DNA of 11,954 nt from the NCBI GenBank assembly GCA_009702305.1, contig WLIH01000026.1, positions 1 through 11,954 on the forward strand. The letters run 5' to 3'. The position numbers and the translations under genes were made by a program. The notes beneath the pieces were generated by a model. The model worked only from the letters and a program-made list of their open reading frames with translations, searched no databases and was not told the DNA's origin. The DNA comes from Actinomycetota bacterium. GTDB lineage: Bacteria > Actinomycetota > Actinomycetes > Propionibacteriales > Nocardioidaceae. Shown piece after piece: positions 85-11,954 of this stretch. The first letter of the stretch is position 1. Each line of letters starts with the position of its first letter.

Positions 85-561
85 ATGGATCGGCAGCACC
101 CGAGGTCCGTCGTCGCTGCGACGGGACTGCTGCTGCTGCTCGTGCTGCTCGGCGGCATCACCGCCGTGCTGACCGGCGTGCTGCAGGACGACCTCATCCT
201 CAACTGGGCCCAGGGGCACCGCTCCGCCCGCGAGATCCTCGAGCTGCAGGGGCTGGACTACCTCAAGGAGGAGCAGCCCATCGCGGTGCCGCAGTTCTTC
301 CCCGTGGCGTCGGTGCTGTTCGTGGTCGTCGCGTCCCTGCTCGGGGTGCTGCTCGCGTTCTTCCGCGGTGGCCACGGGTGGGCGCGCCTGTCCCTCACCG
401 GCCTGGTCGCGATGACGGCCGTCGCGACGGTGAGCGGCATCCGCGTCAGCCCGCCGCTGGTCTTCGAGGTGCTGTCCTACGTGTCGATCGTGGTCGCGGT
501 GGCGGTGCTGGTGGCGCTGTGGCTGCCGTCGACCAGCGCCTTCCTGCGCGCGCAGGACTGA
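85..561 (+). CDS. Four-helix membrane protein of unknown function
   Basis: I do not recognise the family. The 158-residue product has hydrophobic segments at about 9-31, 72-93, 100-118 and 124-147, which suggests four transmembrane helices. A polar loop of about 40 residues (32-71) between helices 1 and 2 contains charged patches (HRSARE, LKEEQ). The ATG start is chosen because GGAGG at 74-78 lies 6 bases upstream. Third codon positions are strongly G/C, like the neighbours, so this is a genuine resident gene. It is monocistronic in this window: a large inverted repeat lies before it, and a new promoter with an SOS box lies after it. No catalytic or binding motif is visible. A small actinobacterial integral membrane protein is all that can be said. 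Confidence 0.8.
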   Translation: MDRQHPRSVVAATGLLLLLVLLGGITAVLTGVLQDDLILNWAQGHRSAREILELQGLDYLKEEQPIAVPQFFPVASVLFVVVASLLGVLLAFFRGGHGWARLSLTGLVAMTAVATVSGIRVSPPLVFEVLSYVSIVVAVAVLVALWLPSTSAFLRAQD

Positions 562-588: not shown

Positions 589-619
589 TTGACGCACTGT
601 CGGTGCTGAGGTGTACCTT
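589..619 (+). promoter_or_regulatory. Putative promoter of the HEPN gene
   Basis: TTGACG (589-594) resembles a -35 element. TACCTT (614-619) fits the actinobacterial -10 pattern TAnnnT, with a 19-base spacer that is slightly long. The predicted start would be near 626, so the adjacent LexA-type palindrome (622-649) would cover the start site. The assignment rests on pattern and position only. Confidence 0.5.
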
Positions 620-621
620 GA

Positions 622-649
622 GATTGTTCGAACACGCGTTCGAACAATC
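622..649. promoter_or_regulatory. SOS box (LexA operator)
   Basis: The 12-bp arms 622-633 and 638-649 are perfect reverse complements around the spacer ACGC. The core TCGAAC-N4-GTTCGA (628-643) matches exactly the consensus of LexA sites in mycobacteria and other actinobacteria, which is related to the Bacillus-type box. It sits just downstream of a plausible -10 hexamer and about 100 bases before the HEPN start codon, a classical repressing position. The prediction is that the HEPN gene, and perhaps the methyltransferase behind it, are induced by DNA damage through RecA-stimulated LexA cleavage. Confidence 0.88.
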
Positions 650-684
650 CGGCGGGGACGACCTCGACCCCCGTCCCCGCCGGA
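648..684 (+). other. 12-bp hairpin in the leader of the HEPN gene
   Basis: Bases 648-659 and 673-684 are perfect reverse complements with a 13-base loop. The arms are all but two bases G/C, so the RNA hairpin would be very stable. It begins at the right end of the SOS palindrome and would lie near the 5' end of the transcript. No T-tract follows, so it is not a classical terminator. It may protect the 5' end, affect elongation, or be incidental. A short tandem direct repeat, GCGGGTCG at 711-718 and 721-728, lies between it and the ribosome binding site. Confidence 0.5.
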
Positions 685-741
685 GCCCGGGCAGATGACG
701 GGCAGTCCCTGCGGGTCGGTGCGGGTCGACGAGGAGCTGAC

Positions 742-1215
742 ATGACGTCACTGACGAGCACGGACCACCCTGACCAGCGATTCGCCCACCCGTCGGCGCT
801 GCCGGCCACGACCCTGTCCTATCTGGCTCGCTCCGCGGAGTCGCTGGCCGAGGCGATGGCGAGCCCCGACGTGCCGTCGAGGTATGCGTGCGCCCACGTC
901 GCCGCACTCCGCGCGGCCGCGGCTCTGCTCTCGGCGCGCGCCCAGCCGCTGCGCCCGAGCGCGCGCCGTCGTCCGCAGAAGAATGCCTGGGTCCTGCTGG
1001 CCGAGGTCGCCCCCGAGCTGGGGGAGTGGGCGCAGTTCTTCGCCGCTGGCGCGAGCAAGCGAGCCGCCGCCGAGGCGGGCTCGACGCGCGCCGTCTCCGA
1101 GCGCGAGGCCGACGACCTGGTGCGCGACGCCGACCGTTTCCTGGCCGTCGTCGAGCAGGCGCTCGGTCTGGTGCCTCATGCCGCCGTGCAGCTGCAGATC
1201 CCGCGGGCGGGCTGA
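742..1215 (+). CDS. SAV_6107-type HEPN domain protein, SOS-controlled
   Basis: The 157-residue, largely alpha-helical, alanine-rich protein matches the SAV_6107-type HEPN family as I recall it. The match spans the [17 protein letters not shown] segment (47-63), the [20 protein letters not shown] block (81-100) and the C-terminal [16 protein letters not shown] helix (118-133). R47-x4-H52 is a possible form of the Rx4-6H motif that marks many HEPN proteins as metal-independent RNases. Whether this family is catalytic is not known to me, and RNA binding without cleavage is equally possible. The ATG at 742 is preceded by GAGGAG (731-736) with 5-base spacing. A LexA-type box and promoter lie about 100 bases upstream, so DNA-damage induction is expected. 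The CmoM-like methyltransferase gene starts 53 bases downstream, suggesting a shared role in RNA metabolism or the damage response. Confidence 0.85.
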
Positions 1216-1268: not shown

Positions 1269-1991
1269 ATGTCAGGCATGGAGCTCCCGTCGCAGCGGCG
1301 CGGAGCCGCCCGCACGGCGGTCGTCTGGGAGGCGCTGCGACCGGTCCTCGAGGCCGGCACCCCTCTCGACGTGCTCGACGTGGGTGGCGGCACCGGTGAC
1401 TTCGCCGTGCGGGTCGCTGAGCTCGGTCACCGGGGCCGGGGCGTCGACCCCAGCCCGGACGCGTTGGCGGCCCTCGGTCGTCGCGCGCGCGAGCGCGGCG
1501 TCGACGTGGGCGGCCTCCAGGGCGACCTGTCCAGCCTGCTCGACGTGGTCGGCGCCGACAGCGCGGACCTGCTGCTGTGCCACGGCGTCCTCGAGCTGGC
1601 CGGCGACCCGGCCGCCGCGCTGGACACCCTGCGTGCAGCGCTGCGACCGGGTGGCACCGTCAGCCTGCTGGTCGCCCAGCGGCACGCGGCCGTCGTGGCC
1701 AGGGCCATGGCCGGTCACTTCGGCCAGGCGCTGGCGCTGCTCGACGATCCGAGCCCGATCGGTCGGTCGGGTCGACGCTTCACCGCGGCTGAGCTCGGCG
1801 CGCTGCTGGACGGAGCCGGGTTCGGCGCACCGCTGGTGCACGGCGTCCGCGTCTTCGCCGACCTGGTGCCCGGCTCCCTGCTCGACCTCGAGCCGGGGGC
1901 GACAGCCGCCCTGGTCGAGCTCGAGCGCGCCGTCTCCTCGCGCCCCGAGTACCTCCCGTTGGCGACCCAGCTCCACCTGCTCGCCACCTGA
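1269..1991 (+). CDS. Class I SAM-dependent methyltransferase, CmoM/SmtA-like
   Basis: The 240-residue protein has a Rossmann methyltransferase fold. SAM motif I is DVLDVGGGTG (34-43), the acidic strand-2 end is GVD (58-60), and DLLLCHGVLE (100-109) leads to LRPGG (125-129). The layout closely resembles E. coli CmoM (formerly SmtA), which methylates carboxymethoxyuridine at the tRNA wobble position. Corresponding segments are CHGVLEL, the MAGHF segment (147-151), GVRVFADL (192-199) and the C-terminal EYLPLATQLHLLA (227-239). Overall length and end-to-end order also agree. This comparison is from memory, so the substrate is not proven, and a small-molecule target remains possible. The ATG at 1269 is preferred because it follows a -10-like TAGGGT. 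An internal ATG at 1278 is the alternative. The gene follows the SOS-controlled HEPN gene by 53 bases and may be partly co-transcribed. Confidence 0.85.
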   Translation: MSGMELPSQRRGAARTAVVWEALRPVLEAGTPLDVLDVGGGTGDFAVRVAELGHRGRGVDPSPDALAALGRRARERGVDVGGLQGDLSSLLDVVGADSADLLLCHGVLELAGDPAAALDTLRAALRPGGTVSLLVAQRHAAVVARAMAGHFGQALALLDDPSPIGRSGRRFTAAELGALLDGAGFGAPLVHGVRVFADLVPGSLLDLEPGATAALVELERAVSSRPEYLPLATQLHLLAT

Positions 1992-2107: not shown

Positions 2108-2548
2108 GTGCCGCTCTCGGAAGAGGAGCTGCGACTGCTCGAGCAGATGGAGCGCGCCCTCTCCGAGGAGGATCCGAAGTTCGCCTCGACGCTGCGCGGC
2201 ACCTCGCTGCGACGGGCGGCCCGGCGCCGCGCGATCGCTGCGGGAGTCGTGTTCGTCGTCGGCATCGTGATCATGATGACGGGCGTCGTCATCGCGCTGC
2301 CTCCGGTCGGCATCGCCGGCTTCCTCGTCATGCTCGCCTCGGCCGTCGTCGGCCTCAGCGCCGTGCGCGGCCAGCAGACCGCCGGCCCGATCGACGCGGC
2401 TGCCGGTGGCTCACACCCCTCGCGCGGTTTCACCGTGCACGAGGGCGGCCGCTCCGGTCGCACGCGTCGTCCGCGTCGCTCGGGCACCTTCATGGAGCGG
2501 ATGGACGCCCGCTGGCAGCGTCGTCGCGAGGACAACGGCGGCTTCTAA
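2108..2548 (+). CDS. DUF3040 membrane protein
   Basis: The 146-residue protein begins with the signature of DUF3040 proteins, MPLSEEELRLLEQMERAL (1-18), followed by EDPKFASTLR (21-30). It has two adjacent hydrophobic segments at about 43-64 and 66-86, and a basic, Arg-rich C-terminal tail (about 108-146, with RTRRPRR and RWQRRRED). The family is found in actinobacteria, commonly near division and cell wall genes, and its function is unknown. The GTG at 2108 is preferred over the in-frame TTG at 2096, because GGAGG at 2098-2102 lies 5 bases upstream of the GTG and would be inside the coding region otherwise. It is transcribed towards the transglutaminase operon, from which a hairpin at 2579-2620 separates it. 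Confidence 0.9.
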   Translation: MPLSEEELRLLEQMERALSEEDPKFASTLRGTSLRRAARRRAIAAGVVFVVGIVIMMTGVVIALPPVGIAGFLVMLASAVVGLSAVRGQQTAGPIDAAAGGSHPSRGFTVHEGGRSGRTRRPRRSGTFMERMDARWQRRREDNGGF

Positions 2549-7769: not shown

Positions 7770-8195
7770 GTGTTCTTCATGGGCACCTACACCCCCAAGC
7801 TCGACGAGAAGGGGCGGCTGATCCTTCCGGCGAAGTTCAGGGACCGACTCGCGGAGGGGCTCGTGGTCACACAGGGGCAGGAGAAGTGCCTGGTCGTGTG
7901 GCCTGAGGACGTCTTCATGCAGGAGGCCCAGCGCGCCCAGGCGACGCCGATGACGAACAAGGACGCCCGTGACTACGCGCGTGTGCTGTTCGCCGGAGCC
8001 GAGCAGGGCACGCCCGACAAGCAGGGCCGGATCGGCATCTCGCCGGTGCTGCGCCAGTACGCCGCGCTCGAGCGCGACGTGGTCGTGATCGGCGTGATGA
8101 CCCGGATCGAGATCTGGGACCCGGCGCGCTGGCTCGACTACTCGAGCGGGGCGCAGGAGAAGTTCGCCGAGCTCGACGAGCAGCCGAGCGCCTGA
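7770..8195 (+). CDS. mraZ: Transcriptional regulator MraZ
   Basis: The 141-residue protein has the two-copy SpoVT/AbrB-like architecture of MraZ: GTYTPKLDEKGRLILPAKFRD (5-25, split motif DEKGR at 12-16) and a second half with DKQGRIGISP (83-92), ending in VVVIGVMTRIEIWD (104-117). MraZ forms a ring that binds tandem repeats upstream of its own gene and represses the division and cell wall cluster it heads. The GTG at 7770 fits GGAGG at 7759-7763 with 6-base spacing; an ATG at 7779 would remove three residues and is possible. The gene is followed by a 202-base gap with a long RNA hairpin, then the rsmH-ftsL-ftsI genes. Confidence 0.96.
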   Translation: MFFMGTYTPKLDEKGRLILPAKFRDRLAEGLVVTQGQEKCLVVWPEDVFMQEAQRAQATPMTNKDARDYARVLFAGAEQGTPDKQGRIGISPVLRQYAALERDVVVIGVMTRIEIWDPARWLDYSSGAQEKFAELDEQPSA

Positions 8196-8231: not shown

Positions 8232-8353
8232 AGCGGATCCGCAGGGCCTGGTCTCAGCCCGCTCCCGTGCTTCTGGGGCACCTTCCCCGGCTCCAGACAC
8301 ACGACTTCTTCCCCGATCTGGAGCGGGCGGGGACCTGGCTCTGCGGATCCGCT
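8232..8353 (+). ncRNA. Long leader hairpin matching the mraW RNA motif
   Basis: Bases 8232-8265 pair with 8320-8353 to give a 34-bp stem with only two mismatches (8249/8336 and 8256/8329) and two G-U pairs. The outer 13 bp are perfect and include GCGGATCCGC in both arms. The enclosed 54 bases contain CTTCCCC twice (8282-8288 and 8308-8314). An inner 8-bp hairpin, GCTCCAGA (8290-8297) with TCTGGAGC (8317-8324), shares its right arm with the long stem, so the two cannot fully coexist. The mraW RNA motif, described by comparative genomics upstream of mraW genes in actinobacteria, is as I recall a hairpin with a conserved CUUCCCC loop. Position and loop agree here. It probably controls the genes downstream; the mechanism is unknown. 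Confidence 0.75.
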
Positions 8354-8397
8354 CACCTCCGTGCACCACCCGTTCCGACAATCTGGGGTCGAATCCG

Positions 8398-10293: not shown

Positions 10294-11954
10294 GTGCGTC
10301 GAGTCAGCCAGGCCAGCGCCGCGTCGCGACCGTCCGACTCCCGGCGGGGCGCGCCTCACGTGCGACTGCGCATCGGGTTCGTCGTGATCGCGATGGTGCT
10401 CTCGATCTTCGGGGCGCGCCTGGTCCAGCTGCAGGGCATCGACCCTCGCTCCTACGCCGCCATGGCCGCAGCCGAAGGCATGGTCGACGTCGTGCTGCCG
10501 GCCGAGCGCGGCGAGATCACGGATCGCTTCGGCGAGCCGCTCGCGGACTCGGTCGACGGACTGATGGTCATCGCCGACCCGCAGCTGGTGAACACCGATG
10601 AGGACGGCAACACCGTCGACCGGGCACCCGAGCTCGCGAAGTTCCTCGCCAACAAGCTCGACCTTGACTACTTCACGATCCTGCCTCGCCTGCGCGCCCA
10701 GGACAGCCGCTTCCAGTACATCGCTCGCAGCGTGCCGGCGACCCTGGCCACCCAGGTCGTCGCCCGCGCCCAGGCGCTGGGCTTCGACGGCCTCACGACC
10801 CGGCGCGACCAGGTGCGGACCTACCCCGCCGACGACGTCGCCGCCAACCTCGTCGGCTTCCTGGGCACGCCCGACGACGACGGCAACGCCCGTCCGCTCG
10901 CCGGCCTCGAACGCACCTTCGACGGTCTGCTCTCGGGCACCGACGGCTCGGCGCGCTACACCGTCGCCGGTGGAGCCAAGGTGCCGCTCGGCGAGAGCAC
11001 GGTGACCAAGGCCGTCGACGGCCAGGACCTGCACACCACGATCGACCGCGACCTGCAGTGGTATGCCCAGCGGGTGCTGCGTCAGACGGTCCAGGACGCC
11101 GGCGGCGACTCGGGCGTCGCGGTCGTGATGGACGCACGGACCGGCCAGACGCTGGCGCTCGCCGACTTCCCGACGTTCGACGCCAACGCCCCGCTCGAGT
11201 CTCCCGAGGCCGATCTGGGCGCGCGTTCGATCAGCGACGTCTACGAGCCGGGGTCGGTCGAGAAGGTGCTCACGATGTCGGCGCTCATCGACGCAGGCAA
11301 GGTCACCGACAAGACGCGGCTGCTGGTGCCGGGCTCGCTGGCCCGCCAGGACCGGGTGATCCACGACTGGTTCCCGCACGACGTGATCCGGCTGACGCTG
11401 GCCGGTGTCCTCGCCAAGTCGTCCAACATCGGCACGGTGCTCGCGGCCGACCGCTTCGACGACGGCCAGCTGCGCTCCTACCTGTCGGCGTTCGGCCTCG
11501 GCCAGGCGACGGCTGCCGGCATCCGCGGCGAGTCGCCCGGCATCCTTCCCGACCCGAGCATGTGGACCAGCCAGACCCAGGACCGCATCGCGTTCGGTCA
11601 GTCCGTCTCGGTCAACGCCCTGCAGATGACGGCCGCGATCAACACCATCGCCAACGACGGGGTGCGCATCGACCCGAGCCTGGTCATCGGCGCGGCCACG
11701 ACCGACGACGGCACGCAGGTCGGCACCGACACGGTCACCGAGCGCCGGGTCGTCAGCACCGGCGCCGCCCGGCAGACCGCGCGGATGATGGAGCGCGTCA
11801 TCGACCCCGAGGCGGGCGTGGCGCCCGGTGCCGCGGTGCCCGGCTACCGCGTCGCGGGCAAGACCGGCACGGCTCAGCGCGCGAGCAGCGAGTGCGGCTG
11901 CTACGACGGCACCTTCACGGTGTCCTTCGCCGGCTTCGCGCCGGCCGACGACCC
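10294..11954 (+). CDS. ftsI: Septal peptidoglycan transpeptidase FtsI (class B penicillin-binding protein), cut by window edge
   Basis: The first 553 codons are present and the 3' end is beyond the window. A basic N-terminus (1-25) precedes one transmembrane helix (about 25-43). The pedestal or dimerisation domain follows (about 50-270), with ERGEITDRFGEPLA near its start. The transpeptidase domain carries the catalytic S321-V-E-K324 in YEPGSVEK, S376-S-N378 in AKSSNIGT, and K523-T-G525 in AGKTGTAQ. It crosslinks septal peptidoglycan with FtsW and the FtsQLB complex and is the target of beta-lactams. The GTG at 10294 is chosen because GGAGAG (10283-10288) lies 5 bases upstream. It starts 60 bases after the ftsL stop. 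C534 and C536 form a CxC just after the KTG motif. Whether C-terminal PASTA domains exist cannot be seen. Confidence 0.95.
   Translation, partial: MRRVSQASAASRPSDSRRGAPHVRLRIGFVVIAMVLSIFGARLVQLQGIDPRSYAAMAAAEGMVDVVLPAERGEITDRFGEPLADSVDGLMVIADPQLVNTDEDGNTVDRAPELAKFLANKLDLDYFTILPRLRAQDSRFQYIARSVPATLATQVVARAQALGFDGLTTRRDQVRTYPADDVAANLVGFLGTPDDDGNARPLAGLERTFDGLLSGTDGSARYTVAGGAKVPLGESTVTKAVDGQDLHTTIDRDLQWYAQRVLRQTVQDAGGDSGVAVVMDARTGQTLALADFPTFDANAPLESPEADLGARSISDVYEPGSVEKVLTMSALIDAGKVTDKTRLLVPGSLARQDRVIHDWFPHDVIRLTLAGVLAKSSNIGTVLAADRFDDGQLRSYLSAFGLGQATAAGIRGESPGILPDPSMWTSQTQDRIAFGQSVSVNALQMTAAINTIANDGVRIDPSLVIGAATTDDGTQVGTDTVTERRVVSTGAARQTARMMERVIDPEAGVAPGAAVPGYRVAGKTGTAQRASSECGCYDGTFTVSFAGFAPADD

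Follow-up and report, generated by a model that had tools for sequence, protein, structure and literature searches.

A LexA-boxed HEPN gene of actinomycetes, its leader hairpin and a probable role in damage tolerance

Among the closest described counterparts of the locus analysed here is the ImuA'-ImuB-DnaE2 mutasome of mycobacterial type, a LexA-controlled damage unit that unites a C-family DnaE with small accessory proteins. The HEPN operon described below shares these features; however, its DnaE falls outside the DnaE2 clade (22 rows, with locus L112 as the exception), an active-looking DinB stands in the place of ImuB, a HEPN gene is added, and the unit in our own sequence has no DnaE. Operons encoding a standalone ImuB-C together with a Y-family polymerase and DnaE2, often with lexA, have also been reported (PMC6511836). 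There too a small lone protein accompanies a Y-family polymerase and a DnaE, an arrangement that a DUF6504 gene of Deinococcus fits, whereas the excerpted text of that source contains no occurrence of HEPN.

Promoters of the RecA-NDp type follow the consensus tTGTCRgtg-8nt-TannnT (PMC5656591), which the binding motif of PafBC closely resembles (PMC8223512), and PafBC is activated by single-stranded DNA (PMC11804915). Genes with both a RecA-NDp and an SOS box, such as recA, are already known (PMC8223512). The HEPN promoter shares the TGTCRG-N10-TAnnnT pattern with these promoters and differs in that the LexA box of the HEPN operon mostly lies 8–10 nt past the -10, forming a composite element. 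The protein itself belongs, by Pfam cut-off and fold, to HEPN_SAV_6107 (PF18726) of the HEPN-M group, which the relevant part of a 2013 survey marks as without conserved motif, its table row listing 'actinobacteria' alone (PMC3710099). Unlike HEPN RNases, it has no Rx4-6H at helix 4, its RYxxAH lying elsewhere, in helix 2. Within the open-licence literature, we found no published account of DUF6504 or HEPN in an SOS operon.

The window, by which we mean the whole stretch of 11,954 nucleotides that was analysed, is one contig of a Nocardioides-like genome that is 75.6% complete, and the nearest named loci are from Nocardioides. A profile search located PF18726 in 53 of 58 near-set genomes, our own counted, and in 198 of 296 genomes of the class. 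From these we compared 49 near loci (our own plus 48 relatives, with G001, G011, G027 and G037 left out of the 53 matches) and 60 class loci, mostly one per genus; leaders and upstream regions were studied in a set of 138 loci, which includes named loci from some of the same genomes.

LexA box and promoter of the HEPN gene

A perfect LexA box follows the TAnnnT -10 and covers the expected start of HEPN transcription, as the earlier note had read from the letters, and it forms the core of a perfect palindrome (Table 1). The window holds no other perfect box; a site with one mismatch, at 10907, lies inside an open frame (10294–11952). In the 950 nt that precede the start of the HEPN domain, 46 of the 49 near loci and 46 of the 60 class loci have a perfect box; with up to one mismatch allowed, 49 of 49 and 55 of 60 have one. 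Perfect boxes appear in just 1 of 2180 shuffled upstream controls and, downstream of the HEPN gene, twice in 81,734 positions and never in 327,326 positions; the association with HEPN is therefore not a matter of chance. The earlier note had predicted LexA control and proposed that orthologues be checked for SOS boxes, a lack of enrichment counting against it; enrichment is what we found, and this conservation predicts that the HEPN gene is very likely under DNA-damage (LexA) control. Class loci in which the same 950 nt contain no box, even with one mismatch allowed, were L098–L100, from one genus of large genomes, L109 and L127, the last of which has a perfect box further out, at -1555. Our own genome, at its 75.6% completeness, holds only three perfect boxes in total, the other two preceding a 2OG-Fe(II) oxygenase (AlkB-type) gene and a DinB-type gene, the LexA-boxed dinB on contig C367. 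Further upstream in the window, a 158-aa gene without Pfam match occupies 85–561 (+), and many Nocardioides likewise have a relative of it ahead of the box.

Table 1 Features of the HEPN locus, in positions of the window
Feature	Position	Strand	Remarks
-35-like TTGACG	589–594	+	19 nt ahead of the -10
RecA-NDp/PafBC-type element, TGTCGGTG-N8-TACCTT	598–619	+	fits the consensus save for the first lower-case t
-10 TACCTT (TAnnnT)	614–619	+	LexA box begins 8 nt further on
Perfect 28-bp palindrome	622–649	none	12-bp arms and 4-nt spacer; LexA box is its core; from sequence and fold
LexA/SOS box TCGAAC-N4-GTTCGA, TCGAACACGCGTTCGA	628–643	none	overlaps the expected transcription start
Leader hairpin HP1	649–683	+	stem 649–660/672–683; loop ACCTCGACCCC at 661–671
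GGGTCGA	723–729	+	complementary to the HP1 loop; one base ahead of the Shine-Dalgarno-like GAGGAG at 731–736
HEPN_SAV_6107 gene (SAV_6107-type)	742–1215	+	157 aa; PF18726 at 120.1 bits; HEPN fold
Class I methyltransferase gene	1269–1991	+	comes after HEPN or DnaE in many relatives
DUF3040/SCO2097-family gene	2108–2548	+	distal end of the conserved neighbourhood

Two of our observations go beyond the earlier note, namely the fit of the promoter to the PafBC type and the leader hairpin HP1. Ahead of the box, TTGA[CA]-N16-20-TAnnnT occurs in 98 of 138 loci against 4 of 2760 shuffles; for TGTCRG-N10-TAnnnT the figures are 65 of 131 distinct upstreams and 3 of 2620 shuffles. Since the strict TGTCRG motif is found in only 19 of 55 class upstreams, this promoter motif is common and not universal. 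The composite TGTCNG-N10-TAnnnT-N6-12-box occurs 36 times in 34 of 118 class genomes, our own among them, and HEPN or DUF6504 is present at 25 of the 29 composite loci examined (our own not counted, six left out). No PafBC-type element was seen at six other SOS boxes, those of our own alkB-type and dinB genes and four upstream of canonical dnaE2 (L178–L180 and L187). A generic sigma-70 scan of 540–760 returned no promoter; the scan permits spacings of 16–18 only, and that of the candidate is 19. The PafC domain scores above its cut-off in 29 of 29 relatives, and in our own, incomplete, assembly reaches 23.6 bits against a cut-off of 32. A WYL protein of this genome was considered as PafB or PafC and dropped, as on our reading it is a single gene, flanked on one side by an ABC transporter ATPase-like frame and on the other by an unrelated one.

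Gene neighbourhood and the operonic DnaE

In many relatives the HEPN gene belongs to a translesion operon, whose full order is box, DUF6504, HEPN, DnaE, methyltransferase, DinB and DUF3040. The gene of about 100 residues that many relatives have between box and HEPN matched DUF6504 in the three cases tested against Pfam. Of the 60 class loci, 30 have DUF6504 ahead of HEPN; a DnaE-like gene follows HEPN in 33, DinB in 38 and either one in 40. The neighbouring DinB proteins have DMD[AC]F-type residues in 16 and SxDEAF-type residues in 13 of the 17 checked. In the window, the unit consists of HEPN, methyltransferase and DUF3040, as it does in the named loci L034, L037, L040 and L047, and the first dcw gene, mraZ, starts at 7770; no DUF6504 was found in our own genome at its 75.6% completeness. 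This unit looks like a reduced form of the fuller operon, in a comparison that is not rooted on a species tree. The earlier note had taken the lack of SOS polymerase genes as a sign that HEPN itself heads an SOS unit. That lack is real within the window; it nevertheless looks derived, and the inference drawn from it is weakened because 40 of 60 class loci carry a DnaE-like or DinB gene downstream.

Neither DnaE nor DinB was seen downstream of HEPN in the remaining 20 of 60 class loci, within stretches that cover about 5.9 kb in 17 and 0.9–3.1 kb in three, so the window is not the only case of a boxed HEPN gene on its own. Some of these loci have a PAC2, GNAT or MFS gene next after HEPN. HEPN can thus stand without a linked polymerase, and either the boxed lone gene has come about or been kept on more than one occasion, or it is of greater age than we suppose. 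In L113 and L122, of one family, a PAC2-family gene follows the boxed HEPN in place of the polymerases. Elsewhere, a second perfect LexA box lies further along the operon, at +1355 (L035), +1703 (L042) and +1642 (L084) relative to HEPN; L042 has an Endonuclease_1/DUF6359 gene between HEPN and DnaE, and its second box precedes DnaE.

The operonic DnaE belongs mostly to a third clade that is neither DnaE1 nor canonical DnaE2. In a tree of 33 rows, taken from 57 collected frames, its 22 rows make up one side with full support, and identity to DnaE1 and DnaE2 is 26–36% in the pairs compared. The PDIDxD and KLDVLG catalytic motifs are retained in all eight operonic rows inspected, and for the two proteins tested the NCBIfam dnaE and dnaE2 models gave similar scores, below both cut-offs. 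The exception is L112, with the gene order HEPN, DinB, DnaE, whose DnaE clusters with canonical DnaE2 outside the third clade. An initial assignment of the operonic DnaE as DnaE2 was dropped on the basis of the NCBIfam scores and the separate side of the tree.

Across 32 members of the genus, 10 have only the operonic DnaE near HEPN, 19 only a canonical DnaE2 at another place, three both and none neither, in a table compiled by hand in which L020 was scored from L042 (the same genome) and the DnaE of L009 is divergent and lies upstream. The corresponding Fisher p of 4e-6 overstates the exclusivity, because the species are related, some genomes are 84–87% complete and G031 was scored by a 98-residue match at a contig end. 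The split agrees with one polymerase displacing the other while HEPN and its box are retained. Our own genome has a dnaE2 fragment, on contig C209, whose best match is an error-prone polymerase model. At L179, the canonical dnaE2 is preceded by an ImuB-like (IMS) gene and a perfect box; of the frames first chosen there, two adjoining ones gave no Pfam match, a longer frame proved to be IMS, and its protein does not match PF20114. A search of plasmids for DUF6504 gave 15 records, distant ones, among which Deinococcus was informative: plasmid NZ_CP083459.1 (L188) has consecutive genes for LexA, a Y-family polymerase, DUF6504 and a PHP-domain protein. DUF6504 may correspond to ImuB-C.

The leader hairpin HP1

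HP1 is a structured leader RNA with a covarying stem and a fixed loop. In the window it folds with -26.6 kcal/mol (z -5.0). The loop motif CTCGACC (CUCGACC in the RNA) occurs in 73 of 138 leaders, in 30 of 49 near loci and, across 12 families, in 19 of 60 class loci; its exact letters were not seen in the other 65 of 138 leaders. All 73 have a flanking stem score of at least 5, compared with 22% of shuffled flanks, and a score of at least 7 accompanies CTCGACC in 57 of 77 occurrences in leaders against 32 of 1211 elsewhere in the loci. Across 55 distinct hairpins, with loop borders chosen per sequence, 91.8% of stem cells are paired, compared with 57.6% (at most 64.7%) when the arms are dealt anew and 44–62% when one arm is slid by 1–3 bases. 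In 16 rows of equal length, both sides have changed in 11 of 12 pairs, with a covariation of 0.629 against 0.201.

A model built from 16 rows (R1), several of them from the 39 genomes searched, found matches in 37 of these genomes when the best 150 first-look candidates per genome were scored; the best match was the HEPN leader in 22 and lay elsewhere in 15. In our own genome, HP1 is the top of six matches among the best 150 candidates. Applied to the 60 class loci, the model gave 32 matches, 20 of them in leaders. The top 12 are all leaders, four of which were rows used to build the model, and the 12 matches outside leaders all score at most 23.9 bits. Rfam 15 contained no match over HP1 or the leader in 17 sources (L015 being part of the window), at E up to 1, 10 and 2. 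We also considered HP1 as a general mark of SOS genes and gave this up, since about 230 nt past our own alkB-type and dinB boxes and past the four dnaE2 boxes (L178–L180, L187) contain no CTCGACC; the single copy seen, at L187, lies ahead of the box.

Other leaders carry a different pair of elements. In L089, L093, L103, L107, L115 and L119, a hairpin with a GGGGAAG loop is followed by one with an exactly complementary CTTCCCC loop, and CTTCCCC occurs only in leaders that also have GGGGAAG (16 of 16 leaders). The window itself contains an mraW RNA (RF01746) at 8233–8356 (+), between mraZ and rsmH, with 47.3 bits against a gathering score of 50 and an E value of 1.5e-7. Like HP1, this is an actinobacterial leader element, with another loop and at another gene. 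CTTCCCC is found in this RNA too, so a contact in trans with GGGGAAG leaders is imaginable.

Possible roles of HEPN and HP1

As the HEPN gene often lies in an operon of damage-tolerant DNA polymerases, it probably helps to copy damaged DNA rather than to cut RNA. The competing idea of an SOS-induced RNase, in which HEPN would cut RNA during damage and slow growth, with RYxxAH of helix 2 replacing the Rx4-6H of helix 4, seems to us quite unlikely. The helix-2 motif R[YF]xx[AS][HYQ] is indeed present in 137 of 142 HEPN rows, with H in the last position in 132, and the solved folds listed include HepT and AbiV HEPN proteins. Against this, the window protein, although a clear family member (120.1 bits against a cut-off of 27.2), is without the canonical Rx4-6H at the start of helix 4, its only H residues being 9, 16, 52 and 146, and just 8 of the 65 rows in which the EREAD stretch was found have Rx4-6H near it. 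The family is marked as without motif in the survey passage cited above (PMC3710099), and the frequent neighbours of HEPN are DNA polymerases. In the RNase sense, the RNA-level arm of the damage response that the earlier note had suggested is therefore unsupported; there is an RNA element, but it lies in the 5' leader. It is similarly improbable that HEPN is a passenger, left as a housekeeping or decaying gene behind a box that was once that of the polymerases and no longer matters for its regulation. Such an origin would suit L098–L100, which retain HEPN beside the methyltransferase and DUF3040 with the box absent at up to one mismatch, but the perfect box is kept in the reduced loci L007, L010, L013, L015, L021, L076, L080 and L083, and the protein is well conserved, with 68–81% identity to 19 Nocardioides rows of alignment A3.

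For HP1, the alternative is a transcription attenuator or terminator, or a mere stabiliser of the 5' end, without a loop-specific partner, which we regard as rather doubtful. The stem is very stable, and in L146 it enters a run of five T, counting the last stem base. Speaking for a partner, the fixed part is the loop and the variable part the stem, a scan of 540–760 found no terminator-like site, and 30 of 67 leaders have a downstream complement of the loop of at least 8 nt, compared with 2.3 (at most 7) after shuffling, although mostly in related Nocardioides. These longer complements occur in Nocardioides and some Propionibacteriales; that of the window has 7 nt, and the loop is predicted to pair with it. 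HP1 is a probable translation gate or a protection of the 5' end, given that its C-rich loop could base-pair with the G-rich sequence adjoining the Shine-Dalgarno element.

On balance we favour, with some reserve, a reading in which HEPN is induced by damage as an accessory to translesion synthesis, expressed from a LexA-controlled promoter with input from PafBC and with HP1 in its leader. Positions 589–744 would then hold the promoter through which DNA damage switches on a translesion-synthesis operon of actinomycetes. LexA on the start site would block RNA polymerase until damage leads to its removal via RecA, and PafBC, switched on by single-stranded DNA, would probably direct RNA polymerase to the adjoining TGTCGG element. 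The transcript would start at or within the box and carry HP1, which would probably gate translation or protect the 5' end. The full unit would encode DUF6504, HEPN, third-clade DnaE and DinB, with HEPN most likely serving as a non-catalytic helical accessory that helps to assemble or place the lesion-bypass polymerases, a mutasome role to which we give an about even to slightly better chance. In the lineage of the window, a canonical DnaE2 encoded elsewhere would have taken over, and the unit would have lost DUF6504, DnaE and DinB, the LexA-boxed HEPN staying behind.

More broadly, and tentatively, the operon may represent a third type of mutasome in actinomycetes, made up of DUF6504, HEPN, a separate DnaE clade and DinB, in which one promoter would join LexA release to PafBC activation and an undescribed leader RNA would add a post-transcriptional gate via its CUCGACCC loop. 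For PF18726, a family with no known function, and the DUF PF20114, the results offer a testable position in the tolerance of DNA damage throughout a large bacterial class; they also point to a DnaE lineage that, at their cut-offs, the NCBIfam models leave unnamed. Were an operon of lesion-bypass polymerases governed by a leader RNA, induced mutation would have an unexpected point of control.
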